Below, one piece after another: positions 42,773-50,489 of a stretch of DNA of 64,000 nt. The notes under the pieces are model-generated. The model searched no databases. It had not been told where the DNA came from and worked only from the letters and a program-made list of their open reading frames with translations. The DNA is from Sphingobacterium bovistauri (lineage in GTDB: Bacteria; Bacteroidota; Bacteroidia; Sphingobacteriales; Sphingobacteriaceae): NCBI RefSeq assembly GCF_020295405.1, contig NZ_JADEYP010000001.1, positions 1 to 64,000 of the forward strand, in the 5' to 3' direction. The position numbers were made by a program, and so were the translations under genes. Each line of letters begins with the position of its first letter. Position 1 is the stretch's first letter.

Positions 42773-42890
42773 CCCATATTCTATTTACACCTTCCTGTAC
42801 AATCCTGTTCTTAATTATTTTAAATGAATAATATAAATAAATATATTTATCAATTATTAATCACTTGAAACCAATTATAAACCTTACCCC

Positions 42891-44309
42891 ATGGAAAGCA
42901 TTTTTACTAAAGCAATCTATATAATTGTGTTATTTACATATATAAATTTCACTCCTTACAATTGTATTGCACAACAAATGACCCAATATGATGCCATTAA
43001 TTCTGGAGTGAGTTGGATAGATAATCAAGGGAAGGCTGTAAGTGCTAGAGGTGCCTGTATTGTAAAAGATCGGGACAAATACTATTTATTTGGAGAGTAT
43101 AAAACAGACTCTGCTAATGTATTTAATGGATTTGCTTGTTATTCTTCCAAAGATCTATACAATTGGACATTCGAACGTATGGCACTACCAGTGCAAGTAT
43201 CAGGGAAATTGGGTAAAAAAAGAGTTGGAGAACGTCCAAAAGTAATGCGCTCAACTCATACAGGTGAATATGTAATGTATATGCATGTTGATTCACTAAA
43301 TTATAAAGATCAATTCGTTGGTTACGCTACTTCAAAATCAATAACTGGTCCATACACATACCAAGGTGCATTATTATATAATGATAATCCAATTAAGAAA
43401 TGGGATTTGGGTTCCTTTCAAGATGATAATGGCGATGGATATATTCTGATTCACGGAGGTGAGATCTATAAATTAAACGATGATTACAAAAGTGTAAAAT
43501 CAAAGATAAATGAGAAAATAGCCTCGGGATTTGAATCTCCGACTATGTTAAAGAAGGATAATTTATATTATTTCTTAGGTTCAAACTTGACAAGCTGGGA
43601 GCGTAATGACAATTATTATTACACCTCACCATCTCTGTCAGGGCCTTGGACAAAACAAGGGTATTTTGCTCCTCAAGGTTCAAATACATGGAACTCGCAA
43701 TGCACATTCGTGCTACCTATCAAAGGTGATAAGACAACTACCTATATGTATATGGGAGATAGATGGTCCTTTCCAAAACAAAATTCAGCAGCAACATATG
43801 TATGGCAACCCTTAAAATTCAACGGCAATCAATTATCCATGCCTAAATATGTAGAATCATGGGAAATAGATTTGAATTCTGGAATTCATAAAGAAATTGC
43901 AGCTTCTAAATATCATTCTACTACAAATTCAAATAGTGATATAAAATTTAATGGTTCCTGGCAAAAAATAAATGATGAAGGTACGTATTCAAATATAAAA
44001 GGAGATAAATTAATAATCCCATTTAATGGACAAAGGATAAAAATATATGGTGCCTCAAATTTAAACAGTGGATATGCAAAATTTTCATTATTTGATGGAC
44101 GCGGAAATTTACTTTATGAGAATATTGTAGATATGTATGCGTTGGCAAACCATGTGGAATTAAAATACATTAGCCCAATACTAAGTAAAGAAGATTACGA
44201 ATTAATAATTGAAGTCATGGGTGAAGGAGGAATATGGTCTGATAAACGCAGAAATGGTTATGGAAGCAAGGGAAACAATGTAACAATAAGTGGTTTTAAA
44301 ATCTTATAA
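42891..44309 (+). CDS. secreted GH43 enzyme, exo-beta-1,3-galactanase-like (GH43_24)
   Basis: A 472-residue protein with a signal peptide (about 1-27, ending CIAQ). Residues about 40-335 form a five-bladed GH43 propeller. GERPKV, FQDDNGDGYILIHGG, FESPTM, NDNYYYTSPSLSGPW, NSQCTFVLP and MYMGDRW agree well with exo-beta-1,3-galactanases of subfamily 24. Residues about 345-472 are a beta-sandwich, possibly a carbohydrate-binding module. Substrate would be arabinogalactan-type beta-1,3-galactan; this is inferred. It stands alone between the pseudogene and a terminator. Confidence 0.82.
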   Translation: MESIFTKAIYIIVLFTYINFTPYNCIAQQMTQYDAINSGVSWIDNQGKAVSARGACIVKDRDKYYLFGEYKTDSANVFNGFACYSSKDLYNWTFERMALPVQVSGKLGKKRVGERPKVMRSTHTGEYVMYMHVDSLNYKDQFVGYATSKSITGPYTYQGALLYNDNPIKKWDLGSFQDDNGDGYILIHGGEIYKLNDDYKSVKSKINEKIASGFESPTMLKKDNLYYFLGSNLTSWERNDNYYYTSPSLSGPWTKQGYFAPQGSNTWNSQCTFVLPIKGDKTTTYMYMGDRWSFPKQNSAATYVWQPLKFNGNQLSMPKYVESWEIDLNSGIHKEIAASKYHSTTNSNSDIKFNGSWQKINDEGTYSNIKGDKLIIPFNGQRIKIYGASNLNSGYAKFSLFDGRGNLLYENIVDMYALANHVELKYISPILSKEDYELIIEVMGEGGIWSDKRRNGYGSKGNNVTISGFKIL

Positions 44310-48948: not shown

Positions 48949-49542
48949 ATGACCGAAAAAGAGAAAATGATTGCAGGGAAGCCATATTTTGCATCGGATA
49001 GAGAACTTCAAAAAAGCAGATTGGAGGCACAAAGATCCTGTCATCGATACAATCAAATCGACCCGAAGAATTACAAAGAAAGAAAAGCACTTATTAGAGG
49101 TTTATTTGCTATGACTGATACTTTATTTTGTGTAGAACAACCCTTTTATTGCGATTATGGTTTCAATATTACTATTGGAAATAATTTCTTTTCCAATTAT
49201 CATTTGACAATATTGGATTGTGCACCTGTCACTATAGGAGAAAATGTCATGTTTGGACCTAATGTTGCAATTTATACAGCAGGACATCCGATACATGCAG
49301 AAACAAGAAACACAGGATTAGAATATGCATTACCCGTTACAATAGGAAACAATGTCTGGATAGGTGGCAATACTGTCATTAATCCCAATGTATCTATAGG
49401 AGAAAATACAGTAATTGGCTCAGGATCAGTTGTCACTAAAGACATACCATCTAATGTTATAGCTGTAGGAAATCCATGCAAAGTGCTCCGTGAAATAACG
49501 GAGGAAGATAAAAAATACTATTTTAAAAATTTTACAGTATAA
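48949..49542 (+). CDS. maltose/galactoside O-acetyltransferase family protein
   Basis: A 197-residue left-handed beta-helix acetyltransferase. The N-terminal MIAGKPYFASDRELQKSR helical part and the hexapeptide repeats after residue 65 are those of sugar O-acetyltransferases (Maa/LacA/NodL). AGHPIHAETR includes the catalytic His, and GNNVWIGGNTVINPNVSIG is the CoA-side repeat. It transfers acetyl from acetyl-CoA to a sugar hydroxyl. It is a single gene followed by the repeat region at 49.55-49.75 kb. Confidence 0.9.
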   Translation: MTEKEKMIAGKPYFASDRELQKSRLEAQRSCHRYNQIDPKNYKERKALIRGLFAMTDTLFCVEQPFYCDYGFNITIGNNFFSNYHLTILDCAPVTIGENVMFGPNVAIYTAGHPIHAETRNTGLEYALPVTIGNNVWIGGNTVINPNVSIGENTVIGSGSVVTKDIPSNVIAVGNPCKVLREITEEDKKYYFKNFTV

Positions 49543-49544
49543 AA

Positions 49545-49570
49545 AAACCCTATGCGGGAGCATAGGGTTT
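49545..49570 (-). terminator. terminator hairpin 1 next to the 36-bp repeat
   Basis: A 10-bp perfect stem (49545-49554 with 49561-49570) is closed further by C-G around a GGGA loop (in + orientation). On the minus strand it ends in a run of seven T (complement of 49541-49547). The repeat copy 49569-49604 lies on its 5' side on that strand. Confidence 0.75.
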
Positions 49571-49604
49571 ACCAAACCAATTATTAACCTAAATATGAAA
49601 TTAT
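49569..49604. repeat. 36-bp exact repeat, copy 1
   Basis: The sequence from TTACCAAACC to GAAATTAT is identical to that at 49711-49746. It abuts hairpin 1. Read on + it ends in a start-like AATATGAAATT; the ORF from that ATG has only 18 codons (49595-49651). Function unknown. Confidence 0.9.
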
Positions 49605-49683
49605 TGAAAATTTTATATTCATGTAAATCTAAACAAAATATGTGCCAATAATCATTTCATTTAAAAATAAATTAAAATAAAAA

Positions 49684-49712
49684 AACCCCTAAAGCGGAGA
49701 GCTATAGGGGTT
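49684..49712 (-). terminator. terminator hairpin 2 next to the 36-bp repeat
   Basis: A 12-position stem with one A-A mismatch (49684-49695 with 49701-49712) is followed on the minus strand by a long T-run (complement of the A-run ending at 49685). It is the first terminator met by transcripts of the outer-membrane gene at 49827-50489. Confidence 0.75.
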
Positions 49713-49746
49713 ACCAAACCAATTATTAACCTAAATATGAAATTAT
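49711..49746. repeat. 36-bp exact repeat, copy 2
   Basis: This copy is identical over 36 bases to 49569-49604 and 142 bases away, again abutting a terminator hairpin of different sequence but the same form. The ATG inside it is followed by a stop after three codons. Confidence 0.9.
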
Positions 49747-49826
49747 GAATTTAAATTTCTTATATATAACGCACGCAAATCGTTATTAGTATTTTAAGTT
49801 AAATAATTTAACACATTTTTAACACT

Positions 49827-50489
49827 CTAGGGATTTGTAGTCGGCGTAATAATATCCACAACTTTTTCACTTAAACGAGTAATATCTGATTTAAGTCCAA
49901 AAAGAATTGTTAATGCATGAAATGGCCTTTGTTGAATCTTTGTAAAATGCCCCATGTACCCTACCTCTCCTCCTAAAAAAAAAGATTTGAATTTATAGTC
50001 TGCACCTAATCCTACTTTTGCCCCAACAGCAAAATTACTATCATACTTAATATTTACTATAGACTCGATCTGTTGGGCACGCGGTTCGTTAACTAAGCCA
50101 AAACTTGGACCTGCATAGACATATGTATTTAATCTTTTCATTTGTTTACGTGTACCAGCCGCTAAACTGAGCATGTAAATACTTGCATTACCGTTTTTTA
50201 TAGTATGATTATATGTAGGATCATCAATCTTTTGATCAAAATCGAATTTGAAAGTATAAATTGCTGGATATACATAATATTTGGAATTCTTAAGTGAAAT
50301 ATCCAGCCCCATACTGCCTGCAAAAAGCTTTGGCGACAATACTTCTTTTGTCTTACCAATAGGCAAAGCCAAACCTGTGCCAGCAAAATAATAGACTTTA
50401 CGATAATGAATCGTATCGGCACCCTTTTGAGCAAAACAAATTTGAACAAAAAAAACGAAGCTAAATAGCAGTAAAATATTTTTAACCAT
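49827..50489 (-). CDS. outer-membrane beta-barrel protein, unknown family
   Basis: A 220-residue protein with a signal peptide (about 1-20, ending CFAQ) and alternating-hydrophobicity strands such as YYVYPAIYTFKFDFD and YTNVYAG-like segments, suggesting a small barrel (porin-like, about eight strands). I do not recognise a named family. A 12-bp inverted repeat sits just before the start codon, and two terminator hairpins lie downstream. Function unknown. Confidence 0.6.
   Translation of the reverse strand: MVKNILLLFSFVFFVQICFAQKGADTIHYRKVYYFAGTGLALPIGKTKEVLSPKLFAGSMGLDISLKNSKYYVYPAIYTFKFDFDQKIDDPTYNHTIKNGNASIYMLSLAAGTRKQMKRLNTYVYAGPSFGLVNEPRAQQIESIVNIKYDSNFAVGAKVGLGADYKFKSFFLGGEVGYMGHFTKIQQRPFHALTILFGLKSDITRLSEKVVDIITPTTNP

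Follow-up and report, generated by a model that had tools for sequence, protein, structure and literature searches.

A multicopy small RNA family in Sphingobacterium and its relatives, with a predicted role in carbohydrate utilisation

The window, a 64,000-nucleotide stretch of DNA from Sphingobacterium bovistauri (contig NZ_JADEYP010000001.1, positions 1 to 64,000), contains two copies of a previously uncatalogued multicopy small RNA gene, about 60-80 nt long, that is common to Sphingobacterium and its relatives. The two units probably belong to a trans-acting small RNA family of the Sphingobacteriaceae that pairs near the starts of carbohydrate-utilisation mRNAs and blocks their translation, serving as a catabolite-repression or nutrient-switch RNA. 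To our knowledge, post-transcriptional control in Bacteroidota outside Bacteroides has been little explored. A literature search returned no report of this RNA in Sphingobacterium or Pedobacter, and no Rfam family was matched above its gathering threshold by the small RNA described here.

Architecture of the paired units

The units are marked by an exact 36-bp repeat, TTACCAAACCAATTATTAACCTAAATATGAAATTAT, whose two copies are identical and are bordered on both sides by differing bases. This pair is the sole exact repeat of at least 24 bp in the 64-kb window, and its 21-nt core matches twice, as against 0.02 matches expected by chance. The original prediction, made from the letters of the sequence, described two identical copies, each abutting a terminator-like hairpin of differing sequence (here an 11-bp stem versus an 8-bp plus 3-bp stem), and a minus-strand series of repeat, hairpin, and T-run occurring twice in a row; sequence comparison bears out this description. 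The principal features are as follows.

49569-49604, minus strand: copy 1 of the exact 36-bp repeat, the conserved unpaired 5' part of the RNA (sequence comparison)
49711-49746, minus strand: copy 2 of the exact 36-bp repeat (sequence comparison)
49545-49570, minus strand: terminator hairpin 1, a perfect 11-bp stem with loop TCCC, then a T-run (intrinsic terminator search)
about 49684-49712, minus strand: terminator hairpin 2, an 8-bp plus 3-bp stem with an internal mismatch and a C-rich loop, then T7
49542-49597, minus strand: small RNA copy 1, model-matched core of 5' stretch and terminator (R1 covariance model, 53.9 bits, E 5e-6 in the genome)
49679-49739, minus strand: small RNA copy 2, model-matched core of 5' stretch and terminator (R1 covariance model, 60 bits, E 4e-7 in the genome)

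The repeat pair is flanked by a convergent hexapeptide acetyltransferase gene on the plus strand, which ends at 49542, and by an outer-membrane-like gene on the minus strand (49827-50489), for which no Pfam match at E <= 1e-5 was found. The plus strand of the repeat had been noted to resemble a gene leader, a likeness explained by the antisense relation of the minus-strand RNA to a start-region consensus.

Copies, distribution, and covariation

In the sense direction, each window copy is built from a conserved single-stranded 5' stretch followed by a terminator hairpin and a U-run. The conserved stretch reads CAUAAUUUAGGUUWAUAAUUGGUUAGU, and the window copies have CAUAUUUAGG...GGUUUGG. It had been proposed that the 36-mer be counted across the genome and each match inspected for an adjacent hairpin. 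The exact 36-mer occurs only in the window, even when three mismatches are allowed, so that a looser core was needed to reveal the family; 11 diverged copies lie elsewhere, and all ten of those whose flanks were read adjoin a hairpin. A BLAST search with the region found three more places with the same architecture, a search with the core AACCAATTATTAACCTAAATTATG found ten places, and the R1 covariance model found 13 copies in the 4.05-Mb genome, all at E <= 5e-6. The 11 further copies are slightly diverged, with a 1-nt indel and ACTAACC in place of ACCAAACC. Read in sense, the genomic copies have CATAATTTAGGTTWATAATTGGTTAGTTA, give or take small changes, followed by a hairpin whose stem varies and whose loop is CUCCCCG or close to it; in nearly all of them a T-run comes next.

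Copies are present in every Sphingobacterium genome of a fully counted set (37 of 37, with 5 to 42 copies each) and of a second sample (70 of 70, where copy counts are lower bounds, with 17 candidates scored per genome). Other genera of the Sphingobacteriaceae carry from 1 to at least 17 copies. A phylum-wide scan with the R1 model gave a match in 10 of 395 genomes, eight in the Sphingobacteriaceae and two borderline matches outside it (E about 0.005). Among the matches listed, the exact 22-mer occurs in Sphingobacterium, Parapedobacter, Olivibacter, Mucilaginibacter, and bacterium A37T11. The plasmid and named-phage collections yielded no match to the small RNA.

The 5' stretch is almost invariant and is predicted to be unpaired in typical copies. 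The stem, by comparison across copies, covaries: 12 copies from the S. bovistauri genome contain 31 double-change cells versus 10.5 in shuffles, and 71 distinct copies contain 137 versus 30.5, with 95% of cells paired. The first of these figures is the cleaner, because the alignment of 71 copies was fitted to the model. Such compensatory change in the stem indicates selection on RNA structure.

Pairing with the starts of carbohydrate genes

Each gene is expected to produce an RNA of about 60-80 nt, consisting of the unstructured conserved 5' region and an intrinsic terminator with a C-rich loop. The 5' region would provide antisense start-region sequence, with a core seed 5'-AUAAUUGGUUA-3' whose most likely partner is UAACCAAUUAU, immediately ahead of the start codon. 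Predicted partners are mRNAs for SusC transporters, glycoside hydrolases, sugar permeases, pentose and uronate enzymes, and AraC or hybrid two-component (HTCS) regulators, and pairing would block translation of these carbohydrate-utilisation mRNAs.

This prediction draws on an unbiased octamer scan of the 40 nt before the start codons of about 1,620 genes, taken from a simple ORF call over 2.1 Mb (about half) of the genome. The most over-represented octamers were sigma-ABfr -7 boxes. The top non-promoter octamer was TAACCAAT, the complement of the RNA's AUUGGUUA, with 24 occurrences versus 3.2 expected (z 11.7) and rank 1 of 420 permutations. TAACCAAT is not enriched 100-140 nt upstream, and its reverse complement appears only three times before starts. 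The T-variant of the seed, carried by other genomic copies, has at least 9 contiguous complementary bases in 62 genes, versus 16 +/- 9 for dinucleotide-shuffled seeds, and exceeds all 60 shuffles at 8, 9, and 10 nt; the A-variant has 50 such genes versus 17 +/- 10, with none of 60 shuffles reaching 50. Shuffled seeds of this kind take no account of leaders shared by related genes. Genome-wide, the real seed could not be told from shuffled ones by whole-duplex energies, whereas the contiguous-complement and octamer statistics did set it apart.

The longest match in the scan lies within the window.

42869-42884, plus strand: predicted target site AACCAATTATAAACCT, separated by 6 nt from the start codon of the following gene (complementarity to the RNA)
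42891-44309, plus strand: glycoside hydrolase family 43 gene, predicted target (ORF; Pfam PF04616, E 4e-15)

All 16 nt of AACCAATTATAAACCT are complementary to the T-variant, and 11 nt (AAACCAATTAT) are complementary to the window copies; the next longest match, 14 nt, precedes an MFS_2 sugar transporter gene. Genes with a match of at least 10 nt, or with the octamer, encode enzymes (GH2, GH28, GH43, GH67, FGGY kinase, transaldolase, glucuronate isomerase, GFO/IDH/MocA oxidoreductases, and GDSL esterases), transport proteins (SusC-family proteins and an SSF symporter), and regulators (AraC, hybrid two-component, FecR, and a sigma54-dependent response regulator). SusC-family genes are over-represented among genes with predicted sites (7/49 vs 30/1573, p 8e-5). 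By the author's unblinded count, about 21 of 34 genes with at least 10 nt of match are carbohydrate-related, versus about 6 of 28 length-matched random genes. In small DNA samples of other Sphingobacterium, nearly free of SusC genes, the motif was not enriched. With its 5' end antisense to the starts of many sugar and polysaccharide genes, the small RNA probably switches a diet programme off.

Could the conserved parts instead bind a protein? A small RNA acting as a sponge through its 5' stretch or C-rich loop, with no mRNA pairing, would account for a 22-27-nt stretch that is almost invariant across genera and phage copies and is longer than the usual pairing seed, as well as for the conservation of the loop. 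Against this stands the exactly complementary octamer, over-represented on the sense strand only and in the starts of largely one functional class, and we regard the sponge as an unlikely explanation.

Promoters and genomic context

Nearly all copies examined (54 of 55) are clear of ORFs of at least 90 aa, the exception lying opposite a mechanical ORF. The copies are intergenic, with neighbouring genes in every combination of orientations, some lying between divergent genes. At least 59 nt always separate a copy from its upstream gene, while the downstream gap falls as low as zero. On contig C10 of the S. bovistauri genome, two copies (L071:5952-6014 and L072:4404-4466) are each preceded, at a distance of about 157 nt, by a 407-aa gene; these two genes are closely similar and resemble tyrosine integrases, so that some copies may travel with integrative elements.

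Many copies carry an apparent promoter of their own, of either the sigma54 or the sigma-ABfr type. A sigma54-type motif, TTGGCAC-N5-TTGC (at least 9 of 11 positions), precedes 42 of 170 unique copies (0-1 in shuffles) and mostly ends 15-16 nt before CATAATTT. A sigma-ABfr-type promoter (TTG and TAnnTTTG) precedes another 39 of the 170, perfectly in 32 (0 in shuffles), and ends about 6 nt before CATAATTT. Because two unrelated promoter types point to the same start, their spacing is strong indirect evidence of a transcript beginning near AUUCAUAAUUU and would place the 5' end of the RNA at CAUAAUUU. The remaining 89 copies, window copy 2 among them, have no strong match to either consensus, and at the usual spacing neither consensus is matched well in the window copies. 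Two candidate elements lie upstream of them.

49633-49648, minus strand: sigma54-like -24/-12 motif TTGGCACATATTTTGT, preceding copy 1 (matching 10 of the 11 consensus bases)
49759-49779, minus strand: weak candidate promoter region TTTGCGTGCGTTATATATAAG, preceding copy 2

Relative to most copies, the motif of copy 1 is displaced upstream by about 20 nt; if this shifted promoter is used, the 5' end of copy 1 may lie at about 49620. A phased [TA]GTTAA box near -56 from CATAATTT is found in 55 of 170 copies, versus 12 of 663 control stretches, and may be an activator-binding site. Besides rpoN, the gene for sigma54, the genome has three strong sigma54-activator genes. In one of the three (L308:6908-8254, minus strand, contig C3), TTAACCAATTA lies 27 nt ahead of the start codon; as a predicted target, this activator would close a possible feedback loop with those small RNAs that sigma54 drives.

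This context bears on a simpler reading, namely that the units are only transcription terminators, a tandem duplicate ending the minus-strand gene at 49827-50489, with the repeat as a conserved upstream terminator part. Both hairpins do lie 3' of that gene, with T-runs oriented to end it, and many of the other copies likewise have a co-oriented gene before them. Yet copies are not always found behind such a gene: several have divergent genes on either side, or come after a gene that points away, which leaves them nothing to terminate. Many also have a promoter motif of their own. Terminators alone leave unexplained both the 25-nt unpaired stretch conserved across genera and the fixed-spacing promoters. 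Nor is the C-rich loop, a trait of the family hairpins, a habit of the genome, since CCC is found in the loop of none of the 121 other strong terminators of the same genome. This reading is therefore very improbable, and the mere terminator element offered in the original prediction is disfavoured on the same grounds. That prediction had ranged over a mobile or regulatory unit, a small RNA 3' end, and a protein-bound terminator. The small RNA and the regulatory unit are the parts supported, the former as a whole gene of about 60-80 nt with a putative promoter of its own rather than as a 3' end only; a protein may also bind the unit.

Subtypes and phage-borne copies

Three to four subtypes of the small RNA can be distinguished. 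One has GUCUUUU or GUCUUCU before CAU and the loop GCCCAUC; it occurs in Mucilaginibacter-type genomes (one or two copies), in Parapedobacter, and once in the S. bovistauri genome (L077 1491-1552), and it looks ancestral. The others are a sigma-ABfr subtype, a sigma54 subtype that has expanded, and the subtype of the window, in which TTGGTTTGG follows a repeated CATAATTT; species that share the window subtype include S. paucimobilis and S. phlebotomi. One of the copies in Mucilaginibacter-type genomes lies 6 nt after a tRNA-like element. Four such loci (L240, L243, L080, and L133) carry a class-II tRNA-like element with an apparent GTC anticodon loop, in tandem in three of the four, with the small RNA 6 nt beyond the last element. 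Neither ARAGORN nor Rfam called the sequence upstream of these copies a tRNA or tmRNA.

The 22-mer is also found in 44 viral contigs, in most of which a hairpin follows. In the contigs examined more closely it lies in noncoding stretches, either between the genes for portal and head proteins or on the 3' side of tRNAs or tRNA-like units. Tailed-phage contigs contain noncoding arrays of tRNAs, tRNA-like units that lack a normal anticodon arm, and small RNA copies (e.g., L358:2700-3200 and L385:8850-9600 on the minus strand, with other viral loci in L343-L386), and in several contigs these arrays sit between portal and head genes. Attachment sites are a disfavoured interpretation, because the phage copies in the contigs examined lie among structural genes and carry whole hairpins. 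One speculative, rather doubtful scenario is that tailed phages of the Sphingobacteriaceae use their own copies, 3' of tRNA or tRNA-like units, to silence host TonB/SusC transporters and sugar metabolism during infection, for rival-phage exclusion or metabolic diversion. The tRNA would then be a processing handle, and the seed would be shared with the host since both act on one regulatory network.

That the units are a REP- or MITE-like repeat, mobile or selfish, which happens to hold a terminator hairpin is highly unlikely: the family reaches 42 copies per genome, includes tandem and identical copies within a genome, and occurs in phages, but its copies are not fixed at the ends of a longer repeat, their flanks differ from promoter to tail, the element is in every genome of the genus and persists in one or two copies in related genera with its 22-nt core unchanged, and compensatory stem change reflects selection on the RNA. 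The unit, first envisaged as mobile, may or may not move, but it does duplicate, as tandem pairs, near-identical paralogues per genome, and phage-borne copies.

Comparison with known small RNAs

The closest functional parallel to the predicted trans-acting RNA is FopS (family of paralogous sRNAs) of Bacteroides thetaiotaomicron, whose 14 paralogues have canonical sigma-ABfr promoters and a shared R1/R1' seed sequence, repress susC-type mRNAs and carbohydrate genes by pairing at the start-codon region, are bound and counteracted by the RRM-1 protein RbpB, and are also reported in a phage (PMC11697453). The family described here resembles FopS in being multicopy (13 paralogues here, 5-42 in congeners), in its phage occurrence, in its predicted start-codon-region pairing with SusC-type and carbohydrate genes, and, in a subset of copies (39/170), in its sigma-ABfr promoters. 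It differs in belonging to another bacterial family, in its large sigma54-type promoter class (42/170), in the spread of the predicted motif over glycoside hydrolases and pentose/uronate genes besides susC, and in the tRNA linkage of its phage copies. The two families were compared by description, and the R1 model has almost no hits in the 395 phylum-wide genomes. No RRM-1 protein of the RbpB type (PF00076) was found in the S. bovistauri genome, whereas a control Bacteroides genome was positive; Hfq (PF17209) was not found in the genome either. The small RNA would work like FopS but is not filed as FopS, because neither an RRM-1 partner nor Hfq was found and the phylum-wide R1 scan showed no sequence link.

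GibS, also of B. thetaiotaomicron, is a single-copy RNA of 145 nt with two seeds and the non-canonical promoter motif PM2 (PMC7366714). Its unstructured conserved 5' seed, which pairs across start codons, and its link to sugar metabolism are shared with the multicopy Sphingobacteriaceae RNA, as its length, copy number, second seed, and PM2 promoter are not. Outside the phylum, the Qrr sRNAs of Vibrio also comprise several paralogues with sigma54 promoters, but they act in quorum sensing, are Hfq-dependent, and are unrelated in sequence and structure. Spot 42 of E. coli and CrcZ of Pseudomonas serve carbon-catabolite control; the silencing of genes for secondary carbon sources by Spot 42 matches the role proposed here, although both RNAs are Hfq-linked, differ in structure, and belong to other bacteria, and CrcZ acts by sequestering a protein.

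Significance

The presence of this RNA suggests either repeated origins of FopS-like multicopy "diet" RNAs or a greater age than has been supposed, and also that such RNAs can work without RbpB or Hfq. The phage copies open the question of whether phages hijack the diet switch. For the Sphingobacteriaceae, the result is a ready-to-test small RNA family that spans a whole bacterial family, with its seed and promoters defined and with a predicted regulon that coheres around plant-polysaccharide use.
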